Of a stretch of 20,841 nt of DNA, positions 1-20,260 are shown one piece after another. How positions within the stretch are numbered: position 1 is the stretch's first letter; each line of letters opens with the position of its first letter. The notes under the pieces were generated by a model. It was not told the origin of the DNA. It made no database searches and worked only from the letters and a program-made list of their open reading frames with translations. The stretch is from IMG/VR virus record IMGVR_UViG_3300035162_001401, positions 1-20,841 of that record; one strand, given 5' to 3'. The position numbers and the translations under genes were made by a program. This DNA comes from a virus.

Positions 1-1894
1 CTTGCTGTAATGAAACCTGAATGTTTTGTTCTAATTGTTGTTTTTGTTCTTCATCTGGTTCAAGTTCTAAAAATATTCCAAAATCATGCATTGCTACTTT
101 TTCCATTTCGTCTAAAGTAGATACATTAAAAGTGTTAATACTATTTAATAATGCTTCTTTAGTTAAAGGAAATTGTAATGCATCATTTACTCTTAAACTT
201 ATATTTTCAGCTGTTTTAATAGTAATGTACATTAAAGATTTTAATACGTGCCTTGTGGCTGTGTTTGAATTTGCGGCTGCCATTTTTTGTAAACCTACTA
301 AAGCATTCTTATCTGGCATACTACCATCAACTGCTTCATTCAATCCAGTCGTATCTCTTATCATTTGTAAGTAGTATTGATAAGTTTGTATTAGAGATTG
401 TATTTTAGCAAGCCCACTAGAGGATTGTAATTCTTGTATAGGAACTTTACCTCTATTTAATTCTCCATCTTGCGTTAAAGATCTTCCAACAATACTACCT
501 GTTTGAAAATACATATTTAATGCTTCTGCTGGATTATAATTTGTTCCATTGCCAAGGTCAACTTCCGCAAGCCCGTCCATATCTAAATATACTCCATCTG
601 GAACCACACGAGATAATACTTGCTGTAGCTTTAAATGAGTTAATTGAATCATATCCGCAAAGCTTGTAACTCTACTTACTAATGAATCTATTCTACCTTT
701 GTACATTCTAGGTGCTGAAATAGAATAGCTCATATTAACTTTTGTAGTATCAGCATATGGCCTAGTCATGTTTTCAGCAAACTTCCACTCTAAAATTTTA
801 CCCATCCCAAGAACCTTAGCCCCTGTATATAATACTTCTATACTTCTAAACACTCTTTCAAAGTTGTCGTTTTTAGGTGGGTCAAAAGAATCATCTTTTT
901 CAATTGTTTTTTCTAAACCTTGATCGGTTTTTTTAATTTTAAAAACTTGATTAGTATATGTTTTATATTCAAAATATAATATAGAAACAAGATTATTATC
1001 ATCTTGTCCTCCATAATTTCTTACATAATTACTATATTGGGAAGGTCCTTTGTATTTTTGTATTTCTTCTAATTCACTATCTGTTAAAGCCGGAAATTGT
1101 CTTTTAACTTCTGATAAGCTTAAGTTTTTGACCTCTCCAACATAATATATGTCTTCAAAATTAGGATCTTCTGTATAAGAATAAACTATTGCGGCGGGAT
1201 CTACATAATCAACTGTAACACCTTCAGATAGATTAAAACTTGTTTTTGAAACACCAATTCCTAATACTGCTAAATCATATGCAATTCTTCTTTGATCTTC
1301 TTCAAACTTGTTAGCTTCAAAAACATTTTTTATTAATTCTTCTTCGGCAATTTCTACGCTTTGCTTGTAATTTAATTGTAAAAATAAATCTAATTCATCT
1401 TGATTTGCAGGTAGTTTTGATGGATCTGGAGAAGAATATAAATTGTCTCCAGTAACAGCATTTAATTGATCAATATATTCTTTATTTATAATATCATTTA
1501 AAGCATTAAAAGCATAATCAGTTCTTTCTTTTAAAGCAAAAGGATCAGTTGCAAAAGATTTTATTTCATATCCTTTATCTGTCATTCCGTTTACTACAAT
1601 GTCTACAAACTTCGGAATTACTGGTACAATTTTCCAATCTAAATTTAAATAAGACAAATCACCATTAATAGATAATTCATCTTTATATTTTGAAACGGGT
1701 TGTTCCCCTCTAGCATATAATCTTAAGCTATGATAGTTTTGAAAATTCTGTAAATATCTATCACCGCCTATATCTTGTCTGAACCATTCGTTTTCAATGG
1801 CTTGAGCCACTTGTAACCCATAGTCATAACTATTCTTTACTGAATCTGGTACTACCTGATCTGGGAATGAACTGTTATAATTTGTGTAAACCAT
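1..1894 (-). CDS. Phage portal protein, C-terminus beyond window
   Basis: I translated this frame by hand: it opens with ATG at 1894 and stays open to base 1, giving 631 residues with the stop outside the window. It starts MVYTNYNSSFPDQVVPDSVK. Near bases 230-350 it carries a conserved segment containing TGLNEAVDGSMPDKNALVG followed by LQKMAAANSNTATRHVL. This type of segment (TGLN, DGS-PD, ALVG, N-NTATRH) is what I recall from portal proteins of crAss-like and related Bacteroidota phages. Portals form the dodecameric ring at the capsid vertex through which DNA is packaged and ejected. Its ATG directly follows the TAA of the large terminase with no gap, and the terminase-portal order is the usual phage arrangement. 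The upstream bases are A-rich with no Shine-Dalgarno sequence. Function is assigned by remembered family resemblance plus context; the crAss-like link is less certain than the portal call. Confidence 0.85.
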   Translation of the reverse strand, partial: MVYTNYNSSFPDQVVPDSVKNSYDYGLQVAQAIENEWFRQDIGGDRYLQNFQNYHSLRLYARGEQPVSKYKDELSINGDLSYLNLDWKIVPVIPKFVDIVVNGMTDKGYEIKSFATDPFALKERTDYAFNALNDIINKEYIDQLNAVTGDNLYSSPDPSKLPANQDELDLFLQLNYKQSVEIAEEELIKNVFEANKFEEDQRRIAYDLAVLGIGVSKTSFNLSEGVTVDYVDPAAIVYSYTEDPNFEDIYYVGEVKNLSLSEVKRQFPALTDSELEEIQKYKGPSQYSNYVRNYGGQDDNNLVSILYFEYKTYTNQVFKIKKTDQGLEKTIEKDDSFDPPKNDNFERVFRSIEVLYTGAKVLGMGKILEWKFAENMTRPYADTTKVNMSYSISAPRMYKGRIDSLVSRVTSFADMIQLTHLKLQQVLSRVVPDGVYLDMDGLAEVDLGNGTNYNPAEALNMYFQTGSIVGRSLTQDGELNRGKVPIQELQSSSGLAKIQSLIQTYQYYLQMIRDTTGLNEAVDGSMPDKNALVGLQKMAAANSNTATRHVLKSLMYITIKTAENISLRVNDALQFPLTKEALLNSINTFNVSTLDEMEKVAMHDFGIFLELEPDEEQKQQLEQNIQVSLQQ

Positions 1895-4120
1895 TTATTT
1901 TTGAATTATTTTTGATGTAAAGCCATCATTGTTATATTTTTTTATTCCTAAACTCATAGGTTTTAAAACCCTTTTAGCTACGGGAGCATACTTATTTTTA
2001 TTACATGCCATTATAGCTAAGCCTGAGCTAATTGATGCATCAAATTTTGTTCTGTTATTTAAATTAAATTTAGACCAATCATTGAGTGTTCTTATAAAAT
2101 ACATATCTCCATATGTATCATTATTAAATCCAATATAAGAATCTATGTAGCTTTCTATTGCGGCTGCGTGTGCTTGCTTCATATCTTCACTGGAGTTTGG
2201 TACACCACCAATTTCTCTTTCAGTAACAGATAATTTATTATAGGTTTTGTCCGGTCTGTTTATTGAATAGCCTCTATAACCTCTTCTTTTTAAATAATAT
2301 AATAACCTAGGTTTGTTATTCTCTGCTAAGATAGGCATCCCATAGAACACTAAAGCCATTAATACATCCTCAAAAAAGGTTTCTGCATTATCAGGTCTTG
2401 CAACGTATTCTAAAAAAAACATATTAGGTGGTACATCTTCCATAGAAAACTTAGTTAATCCGTGTAAAGATCCTTTAGACCCTCTACCATCAACTGTACC
2501 AGATATATCGTAACTATCACATCCAAATGCGCCACAGTGTTCATTGCCTGGATATTTAGCTCCATTCTTTAAAATCATTCTGTTTTGCATATTGCTATCT
2601 GGAACCCAAGAAACAAAAAATCTACCTTTATTATTTGGTACAAACATTACTTTTGTATCTCTAACACCACCTAACCATTGAAAGTTTCCTTGTGTTATTA
2701 AGCTAGAGTGTTTAATGTCTTCATTATAATCTATTTGTTCGTAAATCTTAGTTAGATTAAATAAAGATTGTTTTGTTTCATCCCTAAATGCATGCTGTAT
2801 AGTTCTTGGGAACTGTCTATAAAATTCATTTAAAGCATCTTGATCTGTTTTTAAACCTTCAACTTCGTTTTGCCAATAATCTATTACGCCTATATCTACT
2901 TCACTTTTATCTATACCAATTATTGGTTTTTCTGGCGTATCGAATATAGGTACTCCATATTTATCAATGAATCCTTCGTAGTTCCATTCCATAGGTATGA
3001 ACAAAGAATATAATCCTGAACTAGTCTGTCCGTTGCGGTTTCTTTTAGTAACGTTTGAATTTTCATATAATCTTTTAAAGTTTTCCCCTCCTTTATCTAA
3101 TGCATTTGATGTTGATCCCATCATACACTTACCTACTATTCTGCTACCTAATCTTAACGTGGTTTTAGTTACTCGCCAGTTGTTTAATATATTATCTGGT
3201 CTTTCCCATTTACCAGATTCATCATGTACTAGCAGTTTTAGTTTTTCTCCGTCATAACTGTTATCCCCTGTGTTCTTCCAGTCAATAGTAGTGTCTAATC
3301 CTTCAATATCTTTTAGCTGCTCGTTTAATTCTATTTTTCGTCTAGTTAGTTTCGACGCCGGGACCCTGTACGCAAGCTCTGTCTTCGGCCTGTCCATCCC
3401 GTCCTGTACCGGCTTGAAGAAGAACGGATAGTTCGTGGATATGGGTACAACCTTGTCGGTGAACATCTTTTTTGCATCAGCACCCGTCTTCGATAAAATT
3501 CCAAATCTAGCATCGCTTGATATCGTTGCCTGGCTAACAGTCTCTGATGATGCCATGAAGCTAAACCCAGACCGTCTATTCTTGAGGTAGCATATACCGT
3601 AACATCTACTGTCGGCCTTACAGGCCTCCCAAAAAATGTAGAATAGTCTGTTAGATTCCCTGAACTCTGCGGCCCCAACATCAATCTTGGTCCACTGCAA
3701 GTACATGTAGTGAGAACCAGTAACGTAAGTAGGGGTACCATTATTATAGAACGAAAACCCTTCTTCTCTAGCTTTAAATTCATTCTCTATATAGTTATAC
3801 CATTGTTCTTTAAAATTGTCTGGATAAGCATCCCAATCAAAAACGCTTTTAATTTTACTAAGCGCTTTGGGATATTCAAATTTTTCCCAATATTGTTCGA
3901 CTTTTACATTGCTTCTTTTGTAAGCTTTGTTTATTATTGGTAACCCAATCCTAAAGCCTTGTATATCATATATTGCACCTACTGTACCGTTTTTACTTAT
4001 AACTACTAAATCATATTCTTTGTTATAACCGTACTTAAAGCTTTTTAATCTATTTAACCTTTTTAAAGTATTAGGTCTTATGTGATCATCTACAATTGAA
4101 TATAGCGTTTGTTGATACAT
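1895..4120 (-). CDS. terL: Terminase large subunit (packaging ATPase and nuclease)
   Basis: This 741-residue protein is the motor that pumps DNA through the portal and cuts the concatemer. The ATPase half shows a deviant Walker A at residues 180-188 (KNRRSGFSF; R-x-x-G-x-S rather than GK[ST]), a Walker B at about 294-302 (LKLLVHDES, Asp300-Glu301) and a coupling-motif candidate at 333-339 (MMGSTSN). The nuclease half has candidate acidic metal ligands at Asp535 (FGCDSYD), Glu600 (ILAENNKP) and Asp694 (KFDASISSG). It is long for a TerL, as I recall is common in this Bacteroidota phage type. Its ATG overlaps the stop of the upstream 94-codon gene by one base (TAATG), and its own TAA touches the portal ATG. 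Residues about 132-257 are encoded by DNA of clearly higher GC than the rest of the gene. Confidence 0.9.
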   Translation of the reverse strand: MYQQTLYSIVDDHIRPNTLKRLNRLKSFKYGYNKEYDLVVISKNGTVGAIYDIQGFRIGLPIINKAYKRSNVKVEQYWEKFEYPKALSKIKSVFDWDAYPDNFKEQWYNYIENEFKAREEGFSFYNNGTPTYVTGSHYMYLQWTKIDVGAAEFRESNRLFYIFWEACKADSRCYGICYLKNRRSGFSFMASSETVSQATISSDARFGILSKTGADAKKMFTDKVVPISTNYPFFFKPVQDGMDRPKTELAYRVPASKLTRRKIELNEQLKDIEGLDTTIDWKNTGDNSYDGEKLKLLVHDESGKWERPDNILNNWRVTKTTLRLGSRIVGKCMMGSTSNALDKGGENFKRLYENSNVTKRNRNGQTSSGLYSLFIPMEWNYEGFIDKYGVPIFDTPEKPIIGIDKSEVDIGVIDYWQNEVEGLKTDQDALNEFYRQFPRTIQHAFRDETKQSLFNLTKIYEQIDYNEDIKHSSLITQGNFQWLGGVRDTKVMFVPNNKGRFFVSWVPDSNMQNRMILKNGAKYPGNEHCGAFGCDSYDISGTVDGRGSKGSLHGLTKFSMEDVPPNMFFLEYVARPDNAETFFEDVLMALVFYGMPILAENNKPRLLYYLKRRGYRGYSINRPDKTYNKLSVTEREIGGVPNSSEDMKQAHAAAIESYIDSYIGFNNDTYGDMYFIRTLNDWSKFNLNNRTKFDASISSGLAIMACNKNKYAPVAKRVLKPMSLGIKKYNNDGFTSKIIQK
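3351..3720. other. GC-rich patch inside terL
   Basis: By hand count this stretch is about 48% G+C, while the 120 bases at 3721-3840 are about 32% and 3241-3350 is about 37%. The edges are sharp, near 3350 and 3725. It encodes TerL residues about 132-257, including Walker A, and the terL frame is uninterrupted across it. Codons inside often end in G or C, unlike the flanks. Candidate explanations are a homologous import from a higher-GC relative, an extra constraint on the DNA, or a chimeric assembly. Confidence 0.7.
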
Positions 4121-4386
4121 TATTTAGATCTGCTTTCAGCAAAACCACCAAACTTTTTAGCTTGCTTTGTATTATCTTCTAACATTTTTTCTTCTTGCTC
4201 TATTCGGCTTAGTATTTCAAATGCATCAAATATTGCTAATTTTTTAGTTGCAGCAGCATTTTTAAGTCTGTCCGCAGATATGTCATCACCTGAATCTACA
4301 ATTGCTTCTTTAGCCACTTTAATTAACTCCTCAACTGCTAACTGCCCAGCCTGGATTATATTCAACTTCGTTTCCTTTGTGTTCAT
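4120..4386 (-). CDS. Small helical protein, candidate terminase small subunit
   Basis: The preferred product has 88 residues and starts MNTKETKLNIIQAGQLAVEE. An upstream in-frame ATG at 4404 would add six residues (MILLLN), but the ATG at 4386 is preceded by an A-rich leader (TTATTAAAT) like its neighbours and gives a more typical hydrophilic start. The protein is predicted helical, with a charged segment ending in GGFAESRSK. It lies immediately upstream of terL and overlaps it by one base, the usual place for a small terminase subunit, which recognises DNA and recruits TerL. I see no clear helix-turn-helix, so the assignment rests on position, size and helical character. The first 56 bases overlap the end of the 201-codon gene in another frame. 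It could instead be an unrelated packaging or head protein. Confidence 0.6.
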   Translation of the reverse strand: MNTKETKLNIIQAGQLAVEELIKVAKEAIVDSGDDISADRLKNAAATKKLAIFDAFEILSRIEQEEKMLEDNTKQAKKFGGFAESRSK

Positions 4387-4936
4387 ATTTAATAACAATA
4401 TCATTTGATTTCATACAGTATAAACGCTCATTGTCTATTATAAATTCCCATTCACCATTAGGCGTGTAGCCTACTAGGTCACCAGAGCTAATATCGAGCT
4501 CGTTTAAAGAGCTATTGTCATATTTTAATATACCAATAAGGGCTTGTTCTTTTTCTTGCTTTAAATAGTCATTATTTAAAATAGGCTTAACAAAGCATCT
4601 GTCTCCAAAAGACTTCCACTTCCCTTCTGTTCTATATAAATAAATTTGATCTATCTGACAAAAATATAAATTATCTTTAAAATATTTACTACCGTTTTTT
4701 TCTTTACCTCTTATATCATAATATCTTCTAAAAATATTATGATGTATTATTATTTCATCACCTACTTTAATAGGTGTTTTGTATGCTAAGGGTATTGAAA
4801 TTACTTTAGCTTTTTTATTTATAAACTTAAAAGATTCTATATTACAATTTAATATTAAATTTTTATCGTTTACTTTTAAATTATTATCATATCTTTCTCC
4901 TATTGGTTCAACAATAAAATCGTATATGCTATTCAT
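4331..4936 (-). CDS. Tandem GroES-like (double Cpn10) protein
   Basis: This 201-residue protein reads as two GroES-type beta barrels. The first half (about 5-102) has KVGDEIIIHHN (57-67) and a closing IDQIYLYR, matching the GroES pattern VKVGD-x-V followed by ESDILA. The second half (about 106-187) begins GDRCFVKPI, like the opening strand of Cpn10, then SGDLVGYTPNGEWEFIID (151-168) and ERLYCMKSNDIVIKYE, again the GroES C-terminal pattern. I do not see a typical GGIVL mobile loop in either half, so binding to a chaperonin is not assured. It could be a structural protein that reuses the fold. It overlaps the upstream 76-codon gene by 8 bases and the downstream candidate TerS by 56. The fold call is my own pattern reading, not a database result. 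Confidence 0.55.
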   Translation of the reverse strand: MNSIYDFIVEPIGERYDNNLKVNDKNLILNCNIESFKFINKKAKVISIPLAYKTPIKVGDEIIIHHNIFRRYYDIRGKEKNGSKYFKDNLYFCQIDQIYLYRTEGKWKSFGDRCFVKPILNNDYLKQEKEQALIGILKYDNSSLNELDISSGDLVGYTPNGEWEFIIDNERLYCMKSNDIVIKYEHKGNEVEYNPGWAVSS

Positions 4937-8011: not shown

Positions 8012-8435
8012 CGTTATTGATTGATGTTTTTAATACGGTATCGGTATATGTTCTACCTAGCATTATAACATTTCTTCTTTCACTGGTTGGTATATCTTCT
8101 TGACCAAGCATTATTCTGTATATTCTATTTATAAGTTGCTTACCTTTAAAAGACATTTTATATAGATGGTATTTTTGAGTGGTATGATTTCTTTTACGCC
8201 AGACTTTAATCCAGTCTTCTTGTAATAATCTATTCCATCTTCTATTATCCCAGCTATAGGAATAAGCCCCCATTTTAAAATCTATTTTGCTAAATATATC
8301 TATACAATCTAAATATATAAGAAGTTCTATATCTGCACTGGTTAAATTATTGTTCTTAGCTGCCCATTGTCGTATTATTCGATAATGTTTAATTAAGTTC
8401 ATTTCTTTTAAATCCTTTGCCTCTAATCTTCTCAT
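7989..8435 (-). CDS. Winged-helix (MarR-like) DNA-binding protein candidate
   Basis: The product is 148 residues. The order of elements suits a winged helix: a helix at about 8-27, LTSADIELLIYLDCIDIFSK (31-50) as a helix-turn entry, WDNRRWNRLLQEDWIKVWRK (62-81) as the recognition helix and first wing strand, and TQKYHLYKMSFKGKQLINRI (86-105) as the second wing strand and following helix. I recall related MarR-like proteins in Bacteroidota phages. It overlaps groES by four bases (ATGA), so it is co-translated with the chaperonin genes. It may regulate late genes or act in the virion or in replication; I cannot tell which. The fold is inferred from pattern only. Confidence 0.65.
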   Translation of the reverse strand: MRRLEAKDLKEMNLIKHYRIIRQWAAKNNNLTSADIELLIYLDCIDIFSKIDFKMGAYSYSWDNRRWNRLLQEDWIKVWRKRNHTTQKYHLYKMSFKGKQLINRIYRIMLGQEDIPTSERRNVIMLGRTYTDTVLKTSINNVNKDKHR

Positions 8436-8692
8436 AAAACTATAACAACGTCTTGAAGCTTTATAACCTGATAAATATTTTTATCTATTTCTATATTGTG
8501 TCCTGCAGAACCATCATAATAAATATTATCAGATTCTTTAATACCTACTACTTCGGATCCTATTGATATTACTTCTGCTTTATTGTATCTTAAATCTTCT
8601 CGTTGATTTTCAGAAACCAATAAACCACCTTTAGTAGTTGAAGTACCTTGTTTTTCTTTACTTATAATTAAGTTTCTACCTATTGCCTTCAT
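8432..8692 (-). CDS. groES: Co-chaperonin GroES (Cpn10)
   Basis: This 86-residue protein is somewhat shorter than the usual ~97. It opens with the typical barrel strand MKAIGRNLIISKE. A mobile loop follows at about 15-30 with TTKGGLLVSEN, where GGLLV stands in for the GGIVL tripeptide region that docks to GroEL. Then come AEVISIGSEV and a C-terminal IDKNIYQVIKLQDVVIVL, matching the Cpn10 pattern. It would cap the GroEL ring as a heptamer and enclose the folding substrate. The start codon lies 17 bases inside groEL, so the two are coupled. The order is groEL then groES, opposite to the usual bacterial groES-groEL order. Confidence 0.85.
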   Translation of the reverse strand: MKAIGRNLIISKEKQGTSTTKGGLLVSENQREDLRYNKAEVISIGSEVVGIKESDNIYYDGSAGHNIEIDKNIYQVIKLQDVVIVL

Positions 8693-10229
8693 TAATTCTT
8701 AAATTATTAATTATACAATCAGTAGATAAAATAGTTGTTGCAACAGATGCCGCATTTCTAAGTGCTGCTTTTGTTACTAGTAAAGGATCGATTATTCCGG
8801 CTTTAACCATCTTAACCGATTTACCCGTTATCACATCTAGTCCCCATCCTTTCTTTTCAGGATGTGCTTCACTAATGTTAGCGTTGTCTAAGATAGTGTG
8901 ATAGGGAGCTTTAATGGCTTCCAGAAGGATGCTTTCAGCTTTATCTTTAGGTTTGATAAACATAGCAGCGTTTAAAAGTGCTACACCACCACCCGCTACA
9001 ATACCTTCTTTAATAGCGGCTTTAGTAGCACAGATAGCATCTTCTACTCTATCAGTTTTTTCTTTTAATTCTATACTTGAATCTGCACCTACTTTTACAG
9101 TGGCAATCTTAGCAGATAACCTAGCTAATCTTTTTTCTAGTCTTATAACCTCAGGAGCAGTATTGTTTTTGTTTAAATCTTTTTTAATTGTTTTAACAAT
9201 CTCTTTAACTTCATCACTAATACTTTCAACTTTAAGAATAGTTTCGGTGTCGTTAGTTATAGACTTAAGACATGTTCCTAAATATTCTGGAAGTATCATA
9301 TCCATATCATCGCCTAAATCCTCGTTAATAATTGTTGCTCCGGTGAGTAATGCTAAATCAGTTAACATATCTTTTTTAGTAACACCATAGGTAGGTGCAT
9401 TGATAACGTTTACTTTTACAACATTTTTTATTTTATTCATAGCTAAAGTAGAAATTACTTTAGGATCTAAATCAGCAATAATAAGTAATGATTTATTGCT
9501 TTTAATTGCATGCTCTAATATATTCTGTATTTTTCTTACATTCTCAACTGGTGATTCAATAAGTAAAACTAAAGGGTTATCTAATTCAGCAACTCTTGTT
9601 TCTGCTTTAGTAACAAAGTGAGAGTTTGTTAATCCTTTATTATATTGTATTCCTTCTACTAATTCAGAAGTTGTTTTAGATAGCTCTGTAGCTTCCATCA
9701 TTACAACACCAGTTTCGTCAACTGATCTAAATGCTTCAGCTATAACAGCACCTAGTACTTTATCATTGTTTGTAGAAATACTCGCAACTTGATCTATCAT
9801 TTGACCGGTTACTTTTATTGAGTTTTTTTCTAGATAATCTATTACTTTATTAACAGCATTATCAATACCCTTTTTTAAATCTCTAGCGCCAAGCTCTTCC
9901 AGTTGTGGATAAGCTTGCGTTAAGATTGAGTGTGCTAGCACTGTAGCAGTAGTGGTTCCATCACCTGCTTCTTTCACAGTTTTCCTAGCAGCTTCCTTTA
10001 GAAGCGTAGCACCCATATTTTCTATTGGATCTAATAATACTATTGAATCCGCTACAGTTACCCCATCTTTTGTTATAACAGGTTTACCTCCAGCATCTTC
10101 TAAAATTACACGTTTACCGCTAGCACCAAGTGTGGAACTAACGGCTTTCGTGAGTTTGTTTATACCTTCAAATAGTTGATCTTTTGCTTCGTAACCGAAA
10201 CTAAGATTCTTGACAATCGCGTCTGACAT
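8676..10229 (-). CDS. groEL: Chaperonin GroEL (Cpn60)
   Basis: This 517-residue protein aligns from end to end with bacterial GroEL (about 548). ATP-site signatures are intact: TKDGVTVAD with Asp55, EAGDGTTTATVLA with Asp90, and DRVEDAICATKAAIKEG with Asp397, followed by VAGGGVALL. These correspond to E. coli Asp52, Asp87 and Asp398. The apical domain is recognisable (VEGIQYNKGL at 191-200, NVRKIQNILEHAIKSNKSLL with hydrophobic substrate-binding positions, then VNVINAPTYGVTKKDML) but more divergent than the equatorial domain. The C-terminus ends CIINNLRINEGNR and lacks the flexible GGM tail that lines the bacterial cavity floor. It probably folds phage virion proteins together with the adjacent GroES. 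No frameshift or missing active-site residue is visible, so it should be functional. Confidence 0.95.
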   Translation of the reverse strand: MSDAIVKNLSFGYEAKDQLFEGINKLTKAVSSTLGASGKRVILEDAGGKPVITKDGVTVADSIVLLDPIENMGATLLKEAARKTVKEAGDGTTTATVLAHSILTQAYPQLEELGARDLKKGIDNAVNKVIDYLEKNSIKVTGQMIDQVASISTNNDKVLGAVIAEAFRSVDETGVVMMEATELSKTTSELVEGIQYNKGLTNSHFVTKAETRVAELDNPLVLLIESPVENVRKIQNILEHAIKSNKSLLIIADLDPKVISTLAMNKIKNVVKVNVINAPTYGVTKKDMLTDLALLTGATIINEDLGDDMDMILPEYLGTCLKSITNDTETILKVESISDEVKEIVKTIKKDLNKNNTAPEVIRLEKRLARLSAKIATVKVGADSSIELKEKTDRVEDAICATKAAIKEGIVAGGGVALLNAAMFIKPKDKAESILLEAIKAPYHTILDNANISEAHPEKKGWGLDVITGKSVKMVKAGIIDPLLVTKAALRNAASVATTILSTDCIINNLRINEGNR

Positions 10230-11039: not shown

Positions 11040-13607
11040 TTATGTTGGGTCTGCGGCAAATGCCATAAAGATGTAGGTTTGTCCGCTTTGGTTTACTGCG
11101 ATTCCTGCGCTGGAAGTTATTTCAAATCCATTTGACAAAAAATCTAAATAAACATTTCCACCACCTGAGTATTCCGAATCTAATTGATTAGGCATTAATA
11201 ACTTATTTGCAGGGTTACTTGGATTTCTTTTATTATCTACAATATACCAGTTTCTTGCAGCACTTGACTGTTTAATCATAACAAAAGCAGGTCTAAATCC
11301 TGTTACAATGGTATTACTACTTGCACCTGTTCCAGTATAAGAACCCATCTTAGAATATCCATCTACTTCTGCAAAACAATATGCAACGTAAGTTGAAAGA
11401 TTATTATTATTATGAGCCGTAGATGCTGAAGTTCTTGTAATAGGTATTACATCTGTTGTTATATTGTCATAAGCTCCAAAAGCAGTTAAATCCATCTCTG
11501 CGTTTGTACCAAAATATAAATTATAAGGATTGTCTCCACTTACATTTCCTGCTAAATCTTTATGGTAAATCATCCATTGAGATGTAGAAGATGCACCACC
11601 ACTTTGTTCAGACATTTTTGTTATAACCATTGCAGGCATTTTGCCTAAACCGTGACCAATTGTAGCGCTTGAACTATTATTTCCTGTATATTCAACAATA
11701 CTAAACCCTGCATCTACATTAGCAGATATAGTAGAAGTTAATGTACCATCTGTATTGCTTACTGCTGCACCTCCTGCTTTCCAACTCCAAGCTACGTATG
11801 TACCTCCATTTCTATTAATACCATTATTAACAACAGAAGGAGTTGTAAAACCAGTTGATGTTATTGAAGGTGCTAAATTTCCGTTTGGATGATTGCTATA
11901 ATCGTATTCAGCGGAAGTTGTATTTGAGTTTAATGCATAGTCACTACCTCTTACTGTGTCGTAAAGTTGATGGGAATTAGTTCCATTTCTTTCTTTAAAC
12001 CAAACTAAATCAGGTGCAAAGTCTATTGAACCCACTTGACTGCTTAAAGAGTTTGTAGATTGCGCTCCACCAGTTCCTGTATATGTAATAGGGGTAAAGT
12101 TTTCACTAGGCACTATAGTAGGCACACACTGTATTTCATTGTAAAGCTGTGTTACTTGAGAGGCGTTTAAAGCTGAGTCGAATATTCTTATTTGGTCTAT
12201 TGTGCCGTTGAAGTTTTGTTTACCACTTGCGGTGGTATATGCACCGATAGCGAAATCATTAGCACCTGACGCAAGACTATACAGTGAAGTGCCCGCCGTG
12301 CCTACTTGATTTCCATCGATATAAAGCTTTACAGAAGTGCCATCAACAGTAACCGCTATGTGTCTCCAAATATTATCTAACGAAACAGTTGGTGTAAATA
12401 CGATAAAACTCATATTAGCACCATTCCCAATACCAACACTTACATTACCAACAGCTGTTAATTGGACTCGAAACCTTCCCGAAACATCAGCAGCAGAAGA
12501 ATCAAAATCACCTATTAAATGATAATTTGCAGAAGAATTATTCTTATTAAACCAGCAAGAAAAGGTAAATGTTGTTGTAGAGGGCATTTGTAGATTACTA
12601 TCTATATAACTACTACTCCCATTAAACTCTCCCGCATTTCCAAACTCACCTGCTACGTTAAAGTTTACGTTTGAAGCTGTACCGTTGTAAGCATATTCAA
12701 CATTAGTTGCTGTACCATTGTATGTATTACCAGTGTCATTAGCGTTTCCACTAAGTTCATATAATGCTGTAGCTGCAACTGGATAATCTAATGTTGACGA
12801 AGTCGCAGATGTTTCAGCATATAGTAACGATACATTCGAGGAGCTTAAAGCTGTTGGGAATATTCTTACTTGGTCTATTGAGCCGTTAAAATGACTTCCA
12901 ATATTACCCCTACTGTTAAACGCTCCTAAAGGAACATTAGGTAAATTTATTGTACCAGTTATTGTTGCGCTACCTACTACATTTCCATCAACATATATAA
13001 TAAGTTGAGAAGTACTTAGTGTAAGTGAAACAAGATGCCAATTATTGTCAGCAAATACCCCAACAGAAGTGATGCTTACTGGAGCGTTTGAGTTATATGG
13101 CCTGTATGATGCTATAACTTTTCCGCTTGAATTTATACCACAACTAAGGTAATCGTCATAAGTAATAGGCTCATTATCTGTTTCTCCAAAAAGATATTCC
13201 GAGGAAGATGGGATTGAAGGTGATTTAAACCAAAGTGATATAGTAATGTTATTTGTTATAGTTGGAAATCCAGTCATATAACTACTACTCCCATTAAACA
13301 TACCCCCTTGTCCAATGTATCCCGACCCCTCTCCGCTATCGCTAGCATCTGACATCTTATAGTATGCTAAATTAGTTATAGGATAATTTGGATCATTTGT
13401 AGTACATAATTCTTCATAATCTATTTCCCACCACCGTGTATCAGTTGTATCGTAATACTCTACATAACCTGTAGTGGTATTAAAACGCATTTCTCCATTA
13501 GATGGAGATGTTGGCCTTTCTGCAGTTGTACCTGTAGGTAATTTAAATGCTGAATTGTCAGAACCGAAATCAAATAATTCTGGTACCTCTATTTTTGTTA
13601 TTGCCAT
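11040..13607 (-). CDS. LamG-domain tail adhesin
   Basis: The product has 855 residues and four parts. The N-terminal adaptor (about 20-62) has LPTGTTAERPTSPSNGEMRF and GYVEYYDTTDTRWWEI. LamG-like domain 1 (about 100-265) contains GGMFNGSSSYM, NNWHLVSLTL and FNGSIDQVRIF. LamG-like domain 2 (about 320-490) contains GEFNGSSSYID, IWRHIAVTVDG, KLYIDGNQVG and FNGTIDQIRIF. A C-terminal phage module (500-855) has two copies of a YTGTG opening, FAPDLVWFKERNGTNSH, TYVAWSWKAGG and RPAFVMIKQSSAARNWYI; I recall it as DUF7483. LamG jelly rolls commonly bind sugars, so a role in adsorption to surface glycans is likely. The adaptor is shared with the two glycine-rich neighbours. Start at 13607 lies one base after the preceding stop. 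Confidence 0.88.
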   Translation of the reverse strand: MAITKIEVPELFDFGSDNSAFKLPTGTTAERPTSPSNGEMRFNTTTGYVEYYDTTDTRWWEIDYEELCTTNDPNYPITNLAYYKMSDASDSGEGSGYIGQGGMFNGSSSYMTGFPTITNNITISLWFKSPSIPSSSEYLFGETDNEPITYDDYLSCGINSSGKVIASYRPYNSNAPVSITSVGVFADNNWHLVSLTLSTSQLIIYVDGNVVGSATITGTINLPNVPLGAFNSRGNIGSHFNGSIDQVRIFPTALSSSNVSLLYAETSATSSTLDYPVAATALYELSGNANDTGNTYNGTATNVEYAYNGTASNVNFNVAGEFGNAGEFNGSSSYIDSNLQMPSTTTFTFSCWFNKNNSSANYHLIGDFDSSAADVSGRFRVQLTAVGNVSVGIGNGANMSFIVFTPTVSLDNIWRHIAVTVDGTSVKLYIDGNQVGTAGTSLYSLASGANDFAIGAYTTASGKQNFNGTIDQIRIFDSALNASQVTQLYNEIQCVPTIVPSENFTPITYTGTGGAQSTNSLSSQVGSIDFAPDLVWFKERNGTNSHQLYDTVRGSDYALNSNTTSAEYDYSNHPNGNLAPSITSTGFTTPSVVNNGINRNGGTYVAWSWKAGGAAVSNTDGTLTSTISANVDAGFSIVEYTGNNSSSATIGHGLGKMPAMVITKMSEQSGGASSTSQWMIYHKDLAGNVSGDNPYNLYFGTNAEMDLTAFGAYDNITTDVIPITRTSASTAHNNNNLSTYVAYCFAEVDGYSKMGSYTGTGASSNTIVTGFRPAFVMIKQSSAARNWYIVDNKRNPSNPANKLLMPNQLDSEYSGGGNVYLDFLSNGFEITSSAGIAVNQSGQTYIFMAFAADPT

Positions 13608-13608
13608 A

Positions 13609-14703
13609 TTAAAATGTTATTGTTCCTGTGCCCCCTGTTATAACTGTTATCTTATCACTTCCTTCTATAAAAGGCGAACCTGCTGCTTGTGTTACCCCAC
13701 TCAGCGTAGGAGAAACTGTATTTGGATACCTTAATATTACAATTCCGGATCCGCCATCGCCTCCAGACATAGTGCTAGGCCTATTAGAACCCCCACCTCC
13801 ACCACCACCAGTATTAGAACTTCCACTGGTTCCATCGCTATTGTAGCCACCTGCACCACCACCACCAATACCTCCAGCTCCAGCAGGCGACGAGCGATAA
13901 GCATCTGATCCACCTCCACCTCCTCCAGCATAGTATACATCAGACCCTGAAACTTGCCCCACAGACGCAGCTGCTGCATTTGTAGCGTTTAGTATATTAA
14001 CAGCTAAACCTGGCCCACCCGATCCAGAATTTCCACTATAAGCGCTACCAGTGCCGTCAAGCCCAACGCCACCAGCACCCCCGGAACCCCCCGTTTTATA
14101 ATTAGGGGCCCCATTTATACTACCACCACGAAATCCTTGCCCCACTGTTCCTTGACCACCGATTTTTGAATTATAGGCTCCTCCAACGCCAGAACCTCCA
14201 TCCAAAAAGCTCACTACTCCAATTCCTCCTGCTAAAGAAGTTATAGCCCCAAACACACTGTTTCCACCTTTTGAAGGGTTAGAGCTATTTGAAGCATTTA
14301 TATTAGGTCCACCTGCGCCTACTGTAACTGTAAATGAATTACCAATTGTTACCTCTATAGAAGATTCTGAAGAAGTGCCTCCCCCCGATGTTGAACCATA
14401 CGAAGTTCTTAAACCACCTGCTCCTCCTCCTCGACCAGTAGAGTAAACACCTCCACCACCACCCGCAACTACAAGGTAGTCAACGGCTATTACAGGGGAT
14501 ATATTAACAAAATTTTTCCATGCAGTACCATTATAAAATTGCATAGTGCTTGAAGAAGTTTCGGAGCTTTGACTTTGATCATTTCTAATCATACCCTCTT
14601 CTGGTGTACCTGCAAACACACTACCTGTTGGAAATTTTAATCCATTAGTACTCTGTGGCTGGTTTAAATCCGTTACTCCTGTTATTACTTTTGTTAATGC
14701 CAT
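13609..14703 (-). CDS. Glycine-rich tail adhesin, copy 2
   Basis: The product is 364 residues. The N-terminal adaptor (about 20-65) has LKFPTGSVFAGTPEEGMIRN and FYNGTAWKNF. The glycine-rich domain (about 74-327) opens with VDYLVVAGGGGG, passes through repeated GGGG and GGAGG blocks with VTVGAGG at 126-132, and closes with GSGIVILRYPNT (318-329). A short C-terminal tail ends TGGTGTITF. This glycine-rich domain is widespread in phage tail fibres, and polyglycine helices packed side by side are known from adhesins such as phage S16 gp38; applying that structure here is inference. It is paralogous to the preceding gene, and its 3' end repeats the same TGTITF ending. Probably a receptor-binding tip. 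Confidence 0.85.
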   Translation of the reverse strand: MALTKVITGVTDLNQPQSTNGLKFPTGSVFAGTPEEGMIRNDQSQSSETSSSTMQFYNGTAWKNFVNISPVIAVDYLVVAGGGGGVYSTGRGGGAGGLRTSYGSTSGGGTSSESSIEVTIGNSFTVTVGAGGPNINASNSSNPSKGGNSVFGAITSLAGGIGVVSFLDGGSGVGGAYNSKIGGQGTVGQGFRGGSINGAPNYKTGGSGGAGGVGLDGTGSAYSGNSGSGGPGLAVNILNATNAAAASVGQVSGSDVYYAGGGGGGSDAYRSSPAGAGGIGGGGAGGYNSDGTSGSSNTGGGGGGGSNRPSTMSGGDGGSGIVILRYPNTVSPTLSGVTQAAGSPFIEGSDKITVITGGTGTITF

Positions 14704-14706
14704 AGT

Positions 14707-15741
14707 TTAACTAAATGTTATTGTTCCTGTACCAGCGGTGAATGTTGTTACACTATCTGTTCCAACTGCTGCAGTTGTTGCTGTTAATCCTGCACCTACG
14801 GTAATTGTTTTTGTATTGGGGTATCGTAGTATAACTACACCTGAACCACCGTTTCCGCCAGTACCTGTTCCTGGATAAGCACCACCACCACCTCCACCAC
14901 CAGTGTTTGGGGTTCCGCTATTCATTGTCGTAGAAGCTGCTCCGGCTCCGCCTCCTCCAGCTCCACCACCACCAGGGCTATTGTTTGCACCAGCTCCACC
15001 TCCACCTGCTCTTGTTACAGATGAACCTGTTATTGTAGACGCAACCCCAGCGCCTCCGGTTCCGCCACTTGCAGAAGATACACCTACAGCGCCGGCGCCA
15101 CCACCACCACCTCCTCTGTAATAGCCTAAATCAGCTCCAAGTCCACCGGCATAGCCTTGATTAGCAGTACCGCTACCAACAGCATTACCTCCAGAACTAA
15201 TAGAACCGCCACCACCACCAGATCCACCATCTGAACCTTTAGAGCAGGAAGGGGTATTTCTTGCTCCTCCAGAACCACCTCCTATTGATGTTATAGTTGA
15301 AAAAACAGAGTCACTACCATTTGTTCCTTTATAACAATTTGCACTAGTACCAATGTTACCCGCACCTCCCGCACCTACAGTTACAGTGTAATTTGTTGCC
15401 ACAACTAAAGATAGAGTGGTTTCAGAAGATCCACCACCGCCAGAATCTTCATTGTTATATGATGCTCTATAGCCACCAGCACCACCACCACCTCCATTAT
15501 ATATGGTACCGCCACCTCCACCAGCAACTACTAAATAGTCTACAGCAAAGCCAAGGTCAATTTCTTTTAATGTTTTCCACTGAGTACCATTATATACTAC
15601 AGTTGTATTAGTAGTAGTATCAACGCGCATCTCACCCGCTGTAGCAGAGGCTGGTTGCTCAGCAGTAGTACCTTTAGCCCAAACAAGGCCTCCAGTATTA
15701 CCACTTAAATCTATTAGGTCTGTAGATACTTTCGTACTCAT
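14707..15741 (-). CDS. Glycine-rich tail adhesin, copy 1
   Basis: The product is 344 residues. The N-terminal adaptor (about 20-62) has WAKGTTAEQPASATAGEMRV and VVYNGTQWKTL, close to that of the LamG protein. The glycine-rich domain (about 67-308) opens VDYLVVAGGGGG, has VTVGAGG at 120-126, long runs such as GGGGGGAG, and closes GGSGVVILRYPNT. The tail ends TAGTGTITFS. Cys136 and Cys166 could form a disulfide. Almost every glycine block is interrupted by small polar residues, as in other phage polyglycine adhesins. It starts one base after the stop of the long tail fibre and ends three bases before its paralogue. It probably contacts the host surface and shares the virion socket with the two following genes. 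Confidence 0.85.
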   Translation of the reverse strand: MSTKVSTDLIDLSGNTGGLVWAKGTTAEQPASATAGEMRVDTTTNTTVVYNGTQWKTLKEIDLGFAVDYLVVAGGGGGTIYNGGGGGAGGYRASYNNEDSGGGGSSETTLSLVVATNYTVTVGAGGAGNIGTSANCYKGTNGSDSVFSTITSIGGGSGGARNTPSCSKGSDGGSGGGGGSISSGGNAVGSGTANQGYAGGLGADLGYYRGGGGGGAGAVGVSSASGGTGGAGVASTITGSSVTRAGGGGAGANNSPGGGGAGGGGAGAASTTMNSGTPNTGGGGGGGAYPGTGTGGNGGSGVVILRYPNTKTITVGAGLTATTAAVGTDSVTTFTAGTGTITFS

Positions 15742-15742
15742 A

Positions 15743-18700
15743 TTATGTTGTTGTTACAAATTCAATTACTGAGTTATTTGGTGGAGCAACTCCAAATGTT
15801 AATACACTAGGGTTACCCGCTACAGTGTATGAAGACTTAGCTTGATATACACCGTTTATAAATACATTTACATAGTTTACAGATGAAACTTGAACAGAAA
15901 GCGTATATGCTGTTTGAGCACCAGTACCAGCGCCAGTATTTACACCTATAGTAGGTAAGCTACTTCCCCCTCCAGCTGCTTCTGTTATAATATCCCCATT
16001 ACTGTCCACTGCTAAATTAGCTACAGCAGTACCAGTAAATGCACTTGCTGAGGTGTAGGCATTAAATTTAATTTTGCCTGTAGAAAGTATTCTCATTCTT
16101 TCTCCGCTATTTACATCAAAACTCATTGACTCATCTGTCCTATTAAGTGCAATAAAATTTGATGTAGAACTTGAAAAATTATCGTGTGAAAAATATAAAA
16201 CAGGATTTGCATTAGCATTAGCAACATTAATCCTAATATTTTTAGCAGTTTCTAAATTAACATATCCAGCAGCACTAGGGCTCGTAGTCCCAATACCCAC
16301 ATTACCACTAGTATCAATTCGAAAAACTTCGGAAGTGTCCATCCTGACAGCTAATGGTGTGGAGCTGTTTGACCCTTGAGACTGCCTTGAATATATATTA
16401 TTTACACTTGTACTTGGTATAATTAGAATTGAAGATGTATCACTAGAATCTGTAATAGCAAAACTTCCTGCCGCTTGAAGGGTTCTATTCGGACTAGTAG
16501 TCCCGATTCCTACGTTGCCTGTAGAGGTGATGCGCATTGCTTCAGCAAGAGTTGTAGTATTACCTGTATGGAAAGCTAATTCGCCCTCTCCTGCAAAAGT
16601 ACTATCGTTTACTGCTCTAATTTTAGCAACTGTACCAACTCCTTGGTCTGAAGCATCTGATTGATAAAAGTCAATATCCCCAATTATTTGGTTTAAACCT
16701 AAAGAAGTATCAGTATTATAAAGCTGAATAGTAGGTGTTTGGTTTCGCACCTGTACAACACCACTCGAGTCTATGCGCAAACGTTCCTGTGGACCAGAAC
16801 TATCAGTTGTTGTTTTTAATATTAATGCAGCATCTCCCGCAGCGGTAGAGATGGAAGTTATTTCTGCTCTTGCGTAGCTTGTTCCTGTTAAAGAGCTTAA
16901 AGGTCTTAAAGTTAAACTTGCAGTTCCGCTCGTTACCCCCGCTAAACCTGCTCTAATCTCTAAATCATTTGTAGAAGATGTTGATTGAAAAATACCATCT
17001 CCACTTACATCTAATTTATTACTAGGGCTTGTGGTCCCTATTCCTACGTTGCCTGTTGCTTTAAATACCGCAACGGGAGTTGAATATGTAGCGCCTCCTA
17101 CTGTTGTTGATGGTGTTATTTCAAAACCGCCGTCTACATTTTCTTGAGCAGCTAACATCCACCTGTAATGTGCTGCACCTGTTTTTAAATATATTTCGGG
17201 CGAAGAATTATCTATAATAAAATCATTTTTTACATAAACTTCGCCTAAGGAGTCTATGCGCATTCTTTCGATTTGGTTTGTAGAAAACGTAAGGTTTCTT
17301 CCATTCCTTGCATTAAATCCCCAATCTAAATTTCCGTTTGTAGTAACTGCTAATCCGTCGGATATGCTACTATTACCAAAATGTGCTACATCTTCAGCGG
17401 TTGTGTTTGAAGTTTTAACGCTTAATTTAGCCCCAGGAGTAGTCGTCCCTATTCCTACGTTGCCTGCGGGGGTGATGCGCATTCTTTCGGCGGCATCGCC
17501 TCCTGTTGGGTTTGTAGCAAAGGCTAAATAATGGTCATTATTTCCTGTAGCTGTAGCTGCTTCAATATAAGCGTGTCTAATATCAGAATTAGCTTCAGAT
17601 ACACCTGACATATTGATTCTAACACCTGTACCTGCATAATTATCAGCATCTCCTGTTGTCAGCATTAAAGCATCTTTTATAACACCCTGACCACCTGTTT
17701 TAATAATTACTTTGTCAAGTAATCCACCACTTAAAGAACTCCCTATCCCTACGTTGCCACTAGAGTCTATGCGCATTCTCTCTGTGCCTGTTGAACCATA
17801 AAGGCCTAAAGCCCCAGAGGCTGGTGTACCTATAAATCCGCCAATTGTTCCTGAATTTGACAGTCTAACAGTAAACTCGTTTGTTGCATCAAGATATGTT
17901 CTACCGCCATATACATCTAACTTAGCAGCAGCCGCAGGACTAGTCGTCCCTATTCCTATATTAGTACCACTTTGTGCAATTGCGGAATCGCCTAAATTAG
18001 TTGAAGTTGTCCATAATGGAACTATATTAGCTGTACCAGTTCCTGAAATTGTACCAGCCGATCCGTTAGCTGCAGCTGTTATTCTACCCTGTGCATCTAC
18101 CGTTAAATTTGCATTAGTATAAGCACCTGCGGCAACAGTTGTGTTCGCTATAGACACTGCACCTGATGCAACCGAAAGCCCACCAGATGTTGGAAAGTTT
18201 GCAATACCTGGAACAGTATCAGTAGCTATATCAATATTAGCCTGCACTTCAGTCCACTCTGATACGCTAGTTGGGTTATTAATGTTTGCAATTACTAAAT
18301 CTCCTATATTTAAAGTAGGACTCCAAAAACCACTCGCATTACCCGCTACGGTAACAGCATATGTCCAACCTTGCTGTATACTGTTTGGACTGGTAGTTAA
18401 ATCTGGTGAATTTGTAGATGCATTATAGCCTCCTTGATATATTAATGCTCCAGTTAAAACATTATCAACATAAGATTTATTTGCCGCGTCGTTAGCTGCA
18501 GTTGGTGTAGTTACATCTATTATCTTATTGCTGTTCATGCTAAAATTAGCCGCTGGCACAGTAAGATCATTTATCGTTAATCCTGTAGTATATGTTACAA
18601 TTTGACCGCCTGTTGCAAGATTAGTACCTGAATTTACTATTGTAGCTGTATTTGCGTCTACCGTAGGATCAGCACTAGTGCCTCCGATTGTTATAACATT

Positions 18701-20260
18701 AGCATCAGCAGATGTAACGCTTTGTACATAACCACTTAAATTATCTGAATTTACTGTAAAATTTGGATAAGTGCCCGTAACAACGGTTCCTCCAGTACCA
18801 GCTATTGAAACTGTTTGATCAGGAGCAGTATTTGTTACAATGGGATTAGCAGGATCTGAAGCATCCACACTTATAGCAGTTCCGGCAACTACGCTGTCTA
18901 CCCCGGTTGCATCGGTTGTGTCTATATTAAAACTAGGATAGGTTCCAGTTATAGTAGCACCACCTGAACCAGTAATTACTACTGTTTGATCAGGAGCAGT
19001 ATTGTTAATAATAGGATCTGATGCAGTGCCTGTTACACTTATATTCGTACCTTGTGTTACTGTAACAACACCTGTTATTGGTGCATCTATCCAATTAACA
19101 ACAGAGCCTGTTGATGAAAGCAATTGTCCCGTCGCACCTTTGCTGTTAGCACTATCTAATAGCCAACCATTTATTTCTGCGTTTTGCGTAGATAATCCCC
19201 CTGCTCCTGAAATTTCTATATAAGAAGCAGTAAAATCTCCAGCTGCTGACTGTTCTGTTATTATAGAATCACCTAAAGTTGTTGATGCACCAGCTCCTGT
19301 CCATTTAGATATTTTTTCTCCAGTACCAGTTCCACTTATATTTCCATTAGTTGCCCACGTTAGCTGATCTGGTGTTCCCCCTGCGGATGTTAATACTTGG
19401 CCAGCTGTACCTGTTGTTTGCGGTAATATTAATGTATACGTTGCTGCTGCTGAATGCGGCGGGCTTTGAAGTGCAACACCGTGTGTACCTGCAGAACAAT
19501 TAAGCTGTAATCTACCATCAGTACTAGAACCATTAATAATTACTGTATCAGCGGCTTGGCTAATTAATGAATTACCTATAGCTGTAGCTCCCGTAAAAAT
19601 AGGTACTGTATTAATAGTACCTGTACCACTTACATTTCCATTGTCTGTCCACGTAGCTGATGCCCCCGCACCTCCACTTGTTAATACTTGCCCCGCTGTA
19701 CCTGTGCTTCCGCCTAAACTTAAATATGTATTAGTACCAGTTAATGCTATGTTTTCTGCATACAATGTTTGTGATAGCCAAAGATTTTGCCATTTTTTGG
19801 CACTACCACCTAAATCTTTTGAATCGTTTGCAGAAGGCCATACCTGTCTACTTGTAATTGTTAATGTTTCACCAGCTGTATCATCAAGAAGAGCTGAGTC
19901 TTCTATATCGGCTCCATTAACACTCCATTTTGTTAATGTATTAAATGTACCTGTACCTGAAACTGTGCCCGGGTGATTAGTAGTTACAAATGTATATATG
20001 TCTCCTCCTGTAGCAAGTGATAAACCATTTTGTACAATAGCAGCGGTGACACTACCAACTGTAGGCTGTTGCGTAGTACCTCCAATTACTATAGTATTGG
20101 CATTACCCGATGTTACAGATATTACACCCGCTACAACGGATTGCAAAGCAGATACCGTAAAACTTGCGGTTTGATTTCTCCCGTTGCTACCAGCTGAGGT
20201 GCCTAAAATTAAATCCGTTAATTTTGGGTCAACTAAAGGATAATTATTTATTATTGCCAT
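15743..20260 (-). CDS. Long repeat-rich tail fibre protein
   Basis: The product is 1505 residues. The N-terminus (1-95) has MAIINNYPLVDPKLTDLILG and TVSALQSVVAG, as in tail-fibre attachment regions. Residues 96-350 carry repeated SGTGT modules and two GTAGQVLTS units. Residues 421-497 hold a tandem TAPDQTV...TGTYP repeat of 57 residues. Residues 573-602 have MNSNKIIDVTTPTAANDAAN plus KSYVDN, a common fibre phrase. Residues 760-1400 contain seven E-x-x-R-I units (E827, 925, 998, 1159, 1240, 1311, 1387), several followed by GNVGIGTTSP. The C-terminal domain (1440-1505) has VNVFINGVYQAKSSYTV. There is no recognisable S74 intramolecular chaperone. This is probably an extended beta-structured trimeric fibre involved in host contact. 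It starts after a 27-base A-rich leader. Confidence 0.88.
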   Translation of the reverse strand: MAIINNYPLVDPKLTDLILGTSAGSNGRNQTASFTVSALQSVVAGVISVTSGNANTIVIGGTTQQPTVGSVTAAIVQNGLSLATGGDIYTFVTTNHPGTVSGTGTFNTLTKWSVNGADIEDSALLDDTAGETLTITSRQVWPSANDSKDLGGSAKKWQNLWLSQTLYAENIALTGTNTYLSLGGSTGTAGQVLTSGGAGASATWTDNGNVSGTGTINTVPIFTGATAIGNSLISQAADTVIINGSSTDGRLQLNCSAGTHGVALQSPPHSAAATYTLILPQTTGTAGQVLTSAGGTPDQLTWATNGNISGTGTGEKISKWTGAGASTTLGDSIITEQSAAGDFTASYIEISGAGGLSTQNAEINGWLLDSANSKGATGQLLSSTGSVVNWIDAPITGVVTVTQGTNISVTGTASDPIINNTAPDQTVVITGSGGATITGTYPSFNIDTTDATGVDSVVAGTAISVDASDPANPIVTNTAPDQTVSIAGTGGTVVTGTYPNFTVNSDNLSGYVQSVTSADANVITIGGTSADPTVDANTATIVNSGTNLATGGQIVTYTTGLTINDLTVPAANFSMNSNKIIDVTTPTAANDAANKSYVDNVLTGALIYQGGYNASTNSPDLTTSPNSIQQGWTYAVTVAGNASGFWSPTLNIGDLVIANINNPTSVSEWTEVQANIDIATDTVPGIANFPTSGGLSVASGAVSIANTTVAAGAYTNANLTVDAQGRITAAANGSAGTISGTGTANIVPLWTTSTNLGDSAIAQSGTNIGIGTTSPAAAAKLDVYGGRTYLDATNEFTVRLSNSGTIGGFIGTPASGALGLYGSTGTERMRIDSSGNVGIGSSLSGGLLDKVIIKTGGQGVIKDALMLTTGDADNYAGTGVRINMSGVSEANSDIRHAYIEAATATGNNDHYLAFATNPTGGDAAERMRITPAGNVGIGTTTPGAKLSVKTSNTTAEDVAHFGNSSISDGLAVTTNGNLDWGFNARNGRNLTFSTNQIERMRIDSLGEVYVKNDFIIDNSSPEIYLKTGAAHYRWMLAAQENVDGGFEITPSTTVGGATYSTPVAVFKATGNVGIGTTSPSNKLDVSGDGIFQSTSSTNDLEIRAGLAGVTSGTASLTLRPLSSLTGTSYARAEITSISTAAGDAALILKTTTDSSGPQERLRIDSSGVVQVRNQTPTIQLYNTDTSLGLNQIIGDIDFYQSDASDQGVGTVAKIRAVNDSTFAGEGELAFHTGNTTTLAEAMRITSTGNVGIGTTSPNRTLQAAGSFAITDSSDTSSILIIPSTSVNNIYSRQSQGSNSSTPLAVRMDTSEVFRIDTSGNVGIGTTSPSAAGYVNLETAKNIRINVANANANPVLYFSHDNFSSSTSNFIALNRTDESMSFDVNSGERMRILSTGKIKFNAYTSASAFTGTAVANLAVDSNGDIITEAAGGGSSLPTIGVNTGAGTGAQTAYTLSVQVSSVNYVNVFINGVYQAKSSYTVAGNPSVLTFGVAPPNNSVIEFVTTT
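16270..17970 (-). repeat. GNVGIGTTSP repeat array inside the tail fibre gene
   Basis: Imperfect DNA repeats encoding R-I-D-S-S-G-N-V-G-I-G-T-T-S-P lie near 17962, 17755, 17460, 17048, 16515 and 16303. The plus-strand phrase CCTATTCCTACGTTGCCTG recurs almost exactly near 17037 and 17448 and with small changes near 16505 and 17743. The neighbouring TCTATGCGCATTC or GTGATGCGCATTC phrases also recur. Similarity at the DNA level implies duplication or ongoing exchange between units. Confidence 0.7.

Follow-up and report, generated by a model that had tools for sequence, protein, structure and literature searches.

The viral record IMGVR_UViG_3300035162_001401, whose whole length of 20,841 nucleotides (nt; 20.8 kb) is referred to here as the window, is that of a marine bacterial virus, and it contains three adjoining minus-strand genes at positions 11040–15741. 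These genes probably encode the receptor-binding proteins of a short-tailed phage with hosts of the Flavobacteriia type. Comparison with related phages suggests that each gene combines a slot-specific head of about 60 residues with an exchangeable tip, and that the tips are replaced by recombination and the heads kept by selection (probability about 0.8).

As described in an earlier sequence-only reading of this DNA, the three genes adjoin on the minus strand and encode proteins of 855, 364, and 344 residues. In the order of transcription, a 1505-residue fiber is followed by slot 1 (14707–15741, 344 residues, GlyB, with head B), slot 2 (13609–14703, 364 residues, GlyA, with head A), slot 3 (11040–13607, 855 residues, the LamG protein, with head C), two small genes, and GroEL. 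The gap between slots 1 and 2 is three bases and that between slots 2 and 3 is one base. GlyB and GlyA each carry a Gly-rich tip, and the LamG protein carries two LamG domains followed by DUF7483.

Tip exchange behind conserved heads

The sequence-only reading proposed a cassette system and pointed to related phages as the place to look for swaps of distal domains. The outcome was as predicted in three close relatives (L169, L170, and L171), which were found by a scan anchored on GroEL; a scan anchored on TerL with a 10 kb flank was too short and reached the cassette only in L089. Downstream of slot 3, the DNA of the window is 98.8% identical to that of L171 (5582 and 2682 nt), 98.8% and 98.6% identical to that of L170 (5582 and 5465 nt), and 97.0% identical to that of L169 (11,051 nt). 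The head DNA, compared slot by slot, is 96–98% identical over 181, 202, and 193–195 nt. Head B (15561–15741) forms a 181-nt block that is 96.7% identical to L171, head A (14502–14703), which has a longer loop, forms a 202-nt block that is 96.0% identical to L171, and head C (13415–13607) forms a 193-nt block that is 97.4–97.9% identical to L169, L170, and L171. The tips differ. Slot 1 carries a Gly-rich tip in the window (14707–15560) and a Gly-rich domain with two LamG domains and DUF7483 in L171. Slot 2 carries a Gly-rich tip in the window (13609–14501) and DUF7483 in L171 and L170, while slot 3 carries LamG-LamG-DUF7483 in the window, a Gly-rich tip in L171 and L170, and DUF7483 alone in L169.

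The boundaries between head and tip are sharp (at nt ~181, ~202, and ~195), with the switch falling within about 15 bases of the head end, and identity in 15-nt steps past this end drops from 12–15 of 15 to 1–7 of 15 positions. None of the 893 nt of the slot 2 tip and none of the 2373 nt of the slot 3 tip of the window can be aligned to L171 or L170. The slot 3 tip aligns to L169 over 328 of its 2373 nt, and the slot 1 tip aligns to L171 over 125 of its 854 nt. In the comparison of the window with L171, the points of switching are the head end and positions at or near stop and start codons. In the more distant contig L201/L089 (flanks ~85% identical), DUF7483 stands directly behind the slot 3 head. 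Divergence of the tips by point mutation was rejected because different Pfam folds occupy the same slot. The cassette idea is well supported by these near-identical phages, which retain their heads and differ in their tips, and by the scatter of Gly-rich and LamG domains over the slots, which is like that of shuffled labels (see below). Conserved N-termini with C-termini exchanged between close relatives, the principle seen in the Ackermannviridae, were thus found here as well. Phages that are ~98% identical around the locus and simultaneously carry three different tips, joined to the heads at points located to within a few bases, amount to a natural experiment.

Two other sources of such differences were considered. 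The tips hold repeated low-complexity segments and the contigs are all metagenomic, and chimeric assembly at repetitive Gly-rich or DUF7483 segments could mimic an exchange of tips. This is highly improbable, as L170 and L171, which were assembled from separate metagenomes, have the same slot 3 tip (1017 nt at 100% identity) and are 99.9% identical over 702 nt of slot 2, so that an isolated mistake in assembly does not account for their arrangement. Furthermore, the switch points are the unique head ends, outside the repeats, and distant relatives show the same mixing. The strong variation between near-identical genomes might instead reflect programmed switching within one phage, by shufflon-like inversion or by a diversity-generating retroelement, and the head is structurally like Mtd, the target of such a retroelement in Bordetella phage BPP-1. 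There is very little to recommend this explanation, as a reverse transcriptase (RVT_1) match was obtained in 0 of 7 records, all of them fragments, and the three genes share one orientation. Inversion was rejected because the inverted repeats are short and imperfect (70–83% complementary).

Slot-specific heads

The sequence-only reading placed a short module, around T-G-T-T-A-E-x-P and then G-E-M-R with a final x-W-K or W-W-E, at the start of all three proteins. These letters are present in GlyB (KGTTAEQP..GEMR..TQWK) and in the LamG protein (TGTTAERP..GEMR..RWWE) and absent from GlyA, which lacks TTAE and GEMR, reads GSVFAGTPEEGMIR..TAWK, and has a 6-residue insertion. The homology of the heads itself extends to all three proteins, GlyA included. 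A head profile of 82 distinct rows from other contigs (Z = 1000; two window heads were used as seeds and later removed) matches GlyB at 65.3 bits (E = 2.5e-19), the LamG protein at 59.1 bits (2.1e-17), and GlyA at 37.3 bits (1.4e-10), and listed no match beyond these three among the 47 window open reading frames scanned. A plain tblastn search with GlyB as query also matched the head of the LamG protein (E 4.8e-6). The homologous part comprises the first ~60 residues of each protein, and in view of the profile matches a chance motif was rejected as an explanation of the module.

Instead of the one socket proposed for all three proteins, there are three slot-specific sockets, which stay apart in all 14 contigs. 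The 32 heads from these contigs group strictly by gene position, forming three clades, and the slot label requires 2 changes on the head tree, the minimum, versus 14.5 when shuffled (0 of 200 shuffles as low). The slot 2 clade has a support of 100/99 and the slot 1 clade 92/84, whereas the slot 3 clade reaches only 81/61. The tree left out the slot 2 head of L251, which is split by an insert, as well as the slot 2 head of L238 and the slot 1 heads of L248 and L249, which are cut by contig ends. Every occurrence of the set has its heads in the order B, A, C. No cross-slot DNA match was found between heads of different slots in the flavophage contigs, which rules out the heads as the route of exchange between slots. 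Should each head indeed be a socket for its own slot, sequence would distinguish tips from sockets in uncultured marine phages, and host range could be inferred for each slot separately.

The heads also tend to occur as a complete set. Where 9 kb or more of upstream sequence was available (21 loci), a head-blind scan anchored on a downstream gene found three slot heads in 9 loci and no head in 12; the slot 2 head of L298, missed by the profile, was counted by eye, and L306 has a fourth head inside its upstream fiber. Among 16 loci with 3–9 kb upstream, all three heads are present in 7, one or two in 5 (where the sequence ahead of the anchor is short), and none in 4. Because L279, L281, and L286 share one set, L261 equals L035, and L307 equals L033, the number of independent loci is lower than that counted. 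Eight GroEL matches reach 93–100% identity, and heads are present in all three that have more than 1.9 kb upstream (L169, L170, and L171); L172–L176 have only 3–1847 nt upstream and no heads. Heads are also present in L201 (GroEL 90%), and more distant GroEL relatives have other fibers with no head or with one or two.

Some slots consist of a socket without a tip. Slot 2 of L201 is a 72-residue head followed by a stop codon, and the 53 bases after this stop read AFKKAEQLYNNKIACS in another frame, which by eye is like LamG tip ends such as ALNASQVTQLYNEIQC. Judged from its sequence, this slot has lost its tip by deletion and kept the socket. In a different podovirus family, a head-only gene of 61–64 residues precedes two genes for a head with a Gly-rich tip in seven contigs (L024, L029, L066, which has no start codon there, L344, L347, L349, which equals L071, and L354). 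In L347 there is no third head gene before the contig end, and in L343 the head-only gene is cut by the contig end. The ratio of nonsynonymous to synonymous substitution rates of the head-only gene is 0.17–0.64 in 21 of 21 pairs of the seven, indicating that selection preserves it as a protein in its own right. In a separate scan of 19 loci, 14 were without a head, and some of these may simply end too early. The naked sockets suggest a structural duty of the socket itself.

An alternative is that the head is a generic trimerization or spacer module, found widely in the fibers of marine phages, with no slot-specific docking, and that the genes are diverged duplicates of a side fiber. At E ≤ 0.01, 227 of 50,697 phage records contain the module, at 570 places in total, which makes it common, and it is present within long fibers and as tandem copies in L022 and L080. 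This explanation is unlikely, since the slot clades hold in 14 of 14 contigs whereas Gly-rich and LamG tips mix, heads without any tip persist, and uncut loci have three heads or none. The heads could also form an obligate ordered assembly, for example a heterotrimeric β-prism with one chain per slot, in which a single fiber end shows three different tips next to each other. This doubtful proposal stems from the occurrence of three heads or none, from the slot specificity of the heads, and from the 61–64-residue head-only gene, kept by purifying selection, that leads the set in the unrelated podovirus family. If it holds, head-only proteins would be fillers that complete the triplet where no tip is carried.

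The fold of the head was probed using a structure model of the slot 1 protein (AlphaFold; predicted local distance difference test (pLDDT) 88, predicted template modeling score 0.81). Residues 19–60 of this model superpose on residues 5–49 of Mtd (Z 4.6, 2.1 Å over 42 residues, 36% identity) and on residues 583–625 of the CBA120 tailspike TSP3 (Z 4.8), while residues 62–313 match the Gly-rich Pam3 fiber (Z 12.9) and the Bxb1 tail tip (Z 13.8). According to PMC6517402, domain D4 of TSP3 is a three-stranded sheet within a trimeric β-prism II. On the basis of the model, the head most likely forms a β-prism, which would be trimeric.

The slot 2 head gave no match in the 50,697 phage records, which therefore provide no cultured phage that carries it; the genome contigs yielded only 4 weak partial matches to it. 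A tblastn search of the phage records with whole GlyB also gave no match, for which the low-complexity filter is probably responsible, and no head was found in MW202828, an annotated TerL relative. The C-terminus of Gp49 (PDB 9d83) matches the head profile at E 5.5e-5; no paper on this entry was found. Two unusual forms of the head-bearing genes were observed. In L033 (3810–5042), L251 (5612–6856), and L298 (4862–6898), the slot 2 head is split by an insert of ~100–126 residues with a CxxHxxM motif, which by eye we take to resemble a copper-binding cupredoxin. In L312 (2518–4437), L316, and L320, the slot 1 protein has a second Gly-rich domain N-terminal of the head, like a gene fusion.

Tip domains and their ends

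The distal domains are unrelated, as the sequence-only reading had it. Pfam assigns Gly_rich_2 (PF21722) to both Gly-rich proteins (49.4 and 61.7 bits, above the 24.3-bit cut-off) and two Laminin_G_3 domains plus DUF7483 (PF24299) to the third. In the slot 3 tip, the first LamG domain spans residues 103–264 (12816–13301), the second residues 327–490 (12138–12629), and DUF7483 residues 500–854 (11046–12110; 333.2 bits, above the 27-bit cut-off). In trees of the tip domains, from which L249, a near copy of L248, was left out, the slot label requires 7 changes for 16 LamG domains versus 7.6 when shuffled (83 of 200 as low) and 6 changes for 15 Gly-rich domains versus 6.4 (101 of 200 as low). Pieces of tips are shared across slots between L171 slot 1 and L169 slot 3 (94.4%, 337 nt), L033 slot 1 and L238 slot 2 (94.0%, 149 nt), and L170 slot 2 and L171 slot 1 (93.3%, 90 nt). 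The reverse case also occurs: the slot 3 tips of L238 and L033 share 696 nt at 99.7%, and the slot 3 head of L238 is 91% identical to that of the window with no DNA match to that of L033.

The two Gly-rich genes of the window were also said to share their ends at the DNA level, which would favor recombination. The shared 17-mer, AATGTTATTGTTCCTGT, is exact at 13613–13629 and 14714–14730 and is part of an 18-nt identity coding TGTITF (ACAGGAACAATAACATTT at 14713–14730 in slot 1, identical at 13612–13629 in slot 2). Identical coding of two TGTITF ends has a probability of 0.007 by window codon usage. Among 31 Gly-rich tips of the phage group, the last six codons show the strongest excess of synonymous identity (0.32, where 200 codon shuffles reach at most 0.12). 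LamG domains have a synonymous island at SIDQVR (0.22 versus 0.117), the island of DUF7483 is weaker (0.20 versus 0.147), and the terminal set of DUF7483 lies within shuffles (0.21 versus 0.232); shared ancestry lifts synonymous identity somewhat in all columns (mean excess about 0.04). The DNA of the ends is thus conserved beyond chance, which fits short recombination seams without proving them, and no breakpoint was found inside the 18-mer. The conserved 18–24 nt also sit just ahead of the next start codon, and it is possible, if less probable, that they act as a signal for translating the following gene and not as a seam. They are present regardless of which gene comes next, and genes behind DUF7483 or LamG ends do without them. 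In L035 (3621–7250), L264, and L268, one C-terminus, TYTGSGTY, is common to the Gly-rich tips of the three slots throughout the genome, unlike the TGTITF of other phages (TYNGSGTY in L264 slot 3; L268 slot 3 deviates), which hints at concerted change within a genome.

Proposed mechanism, related systems, and genomic surroundings

The exchange of tips can be pictured as follows. First, each head would trimerize its protein and plug into a fixed place on the tail fiber, for which the conserved C-terminus of the long fiber upstream is a candidate. The tips, which string together Gly-rich, LamG, and DUF7483 domains in different combinations, would bind cell-surface glycans, a role suggested by the LamG and Gly-rich folds. 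When phages co-infect a cell they may recombine, with homology supplied by the flanks and the heads, so that whole tips are replaced from head end to stop codon. Islands within the tips would let pieces move between slots now and then. Finally, selection would retain one head of each kind in its slot.

Several observations weigh against this scheme. In the DUF7483 tree (15 domains, 12 of which belong to slot 3) the slots are hardly mixed, and a single slot 1 copy sits inside the slot 3 group. Tip type is not independent of slot, with a Gly-rich domain in slot 1 in 9 of 9 and DUF7483 in slot 3 in 11 of 14. All contigs are metagenome assemblies, and the arrangements of the window and of L169 are without a second assembly. 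The Z values of 4 to 5 for the fold matches to Mtd and TSP3 are low, and the best match to the Pfam family Mtd_N (PF18454) is 17.3 bits (E 0.0045, GlyB head; curated cut-off 26.3), with 5 of 33 heads matching at E ≤ 1. Additionally, the model of an isolated slot 2-type head, that of L201, was poor (pLDDT 69) and matched no Mtd in the fold search, and the prism fold is consequently supported for slot 1 only.

Mtd has an N-terminal β-prism, residues 5–49 of which are the part that superposes on residues 19–60 of the slot 1 head model, and this prism is followed by a binding domain. Mtd is a single gene whose C-type lectin domain is varied by a retroelement; in contrast, the window has three genes whose whole tips are replaced, and there is no reverse transcriptase in the fragments examined. 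The head also resembles the small three-stranded sheet of TSP3 D4 (Z 4.8), which caps the C-terminal end of its tailspike, whereas the head of the window is N-terminal. The Gly-rich tip shares its fold with the cyanophage Pam3 fiber (Z 12.9), and the Gly-rich tips presumably resemble T-even gp38-type adhesins. To our knowledge, neither Pam3 nor gp38-type adhesins come as a triple set with slot-specific heads. In the cyanophages S-SSM5 and S-RIM2, a long fiber is likewise followed by several head-bearing genes, suggesting that the layout is broader than the phage group of the window; these T4-like phages differ in having five head genes and other tips. In S-SSM5 (L259, 9418–12070), three adjoining genes have different N-termini and nearly the same GFREDSLGASNGYLW tip end, a mirror image of the swaps in the window.

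The closest parallel in organization is offered by the Ackermannviridae, in which, according to PMC11414711, conserved N-terminal docking with exchangeable tips in adjoining tailspike genes is established and recombination between tsp genes has been shown by experiment. TSP1–TSP4 of, for example, S117 and CBA120 are, according to the same source, several adjoining receptor-binding proteins with conserved N-terminal docking domains and exchangeable C-terminal tips. The modular principle of receptor binding is therefore known, and the parts differ: the Ackermannviridae have Gp10-like XD and TD docking domains and catalytic β-helix tips, while the window has a β-prism-like head of ~60 residues and Gly-rich, LamG, or DUF7483 tips. 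A Pfam scan of the three proteins, in which the XD profile itself was not used, found no XD domain or Gp10 family. No paper with a title or abstract describing a triple slot-specific set was found in a search whose scope excluded most subscription journals.

The large terminase of the window shares 46% identity with those of Flavobacterium elemo phages, and among the 87 records matching it all named isolates infect Flavobacterium, Cellulophaga, Tenacibaculum, or Maribacter. PHROG neighbors are tail fiber or virion structural proteins, and Rfam gave no matches. Directly upstream of slot 1 on the minus strand lies the 1505-residue long fiber (15743–20260), the presumed trunk. Its last ~72 residues (15743–15958) are conserved, forming with L171 an 87% nt block that continues into the slot 1 head, and this C-terminus recurs in 15 of 15 aligned loci although the fiber bodies differ. 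The middle of the fiber does not align to L171, where the corresponding fiber has only 640 residues (1641–3563); the ends are kept and most of the middle is unalignable. The fiber also carries repeated SGNVGIGTTSP-like motifs. Genes of phrog_7759, with a MAHYA or MAHFA start, lie between or behind the slots in L070 (7408–7776), L085 (2136–3305), and L035 (5737–6132), with none at this place in the window; they are possibly tail fiber assembly helpers. Finally, the window encodes GroEL, a small GroES, and a larger second GroES-like protein of 201 residues (phrog_13932) at 4331–4936 and 8432–10229.

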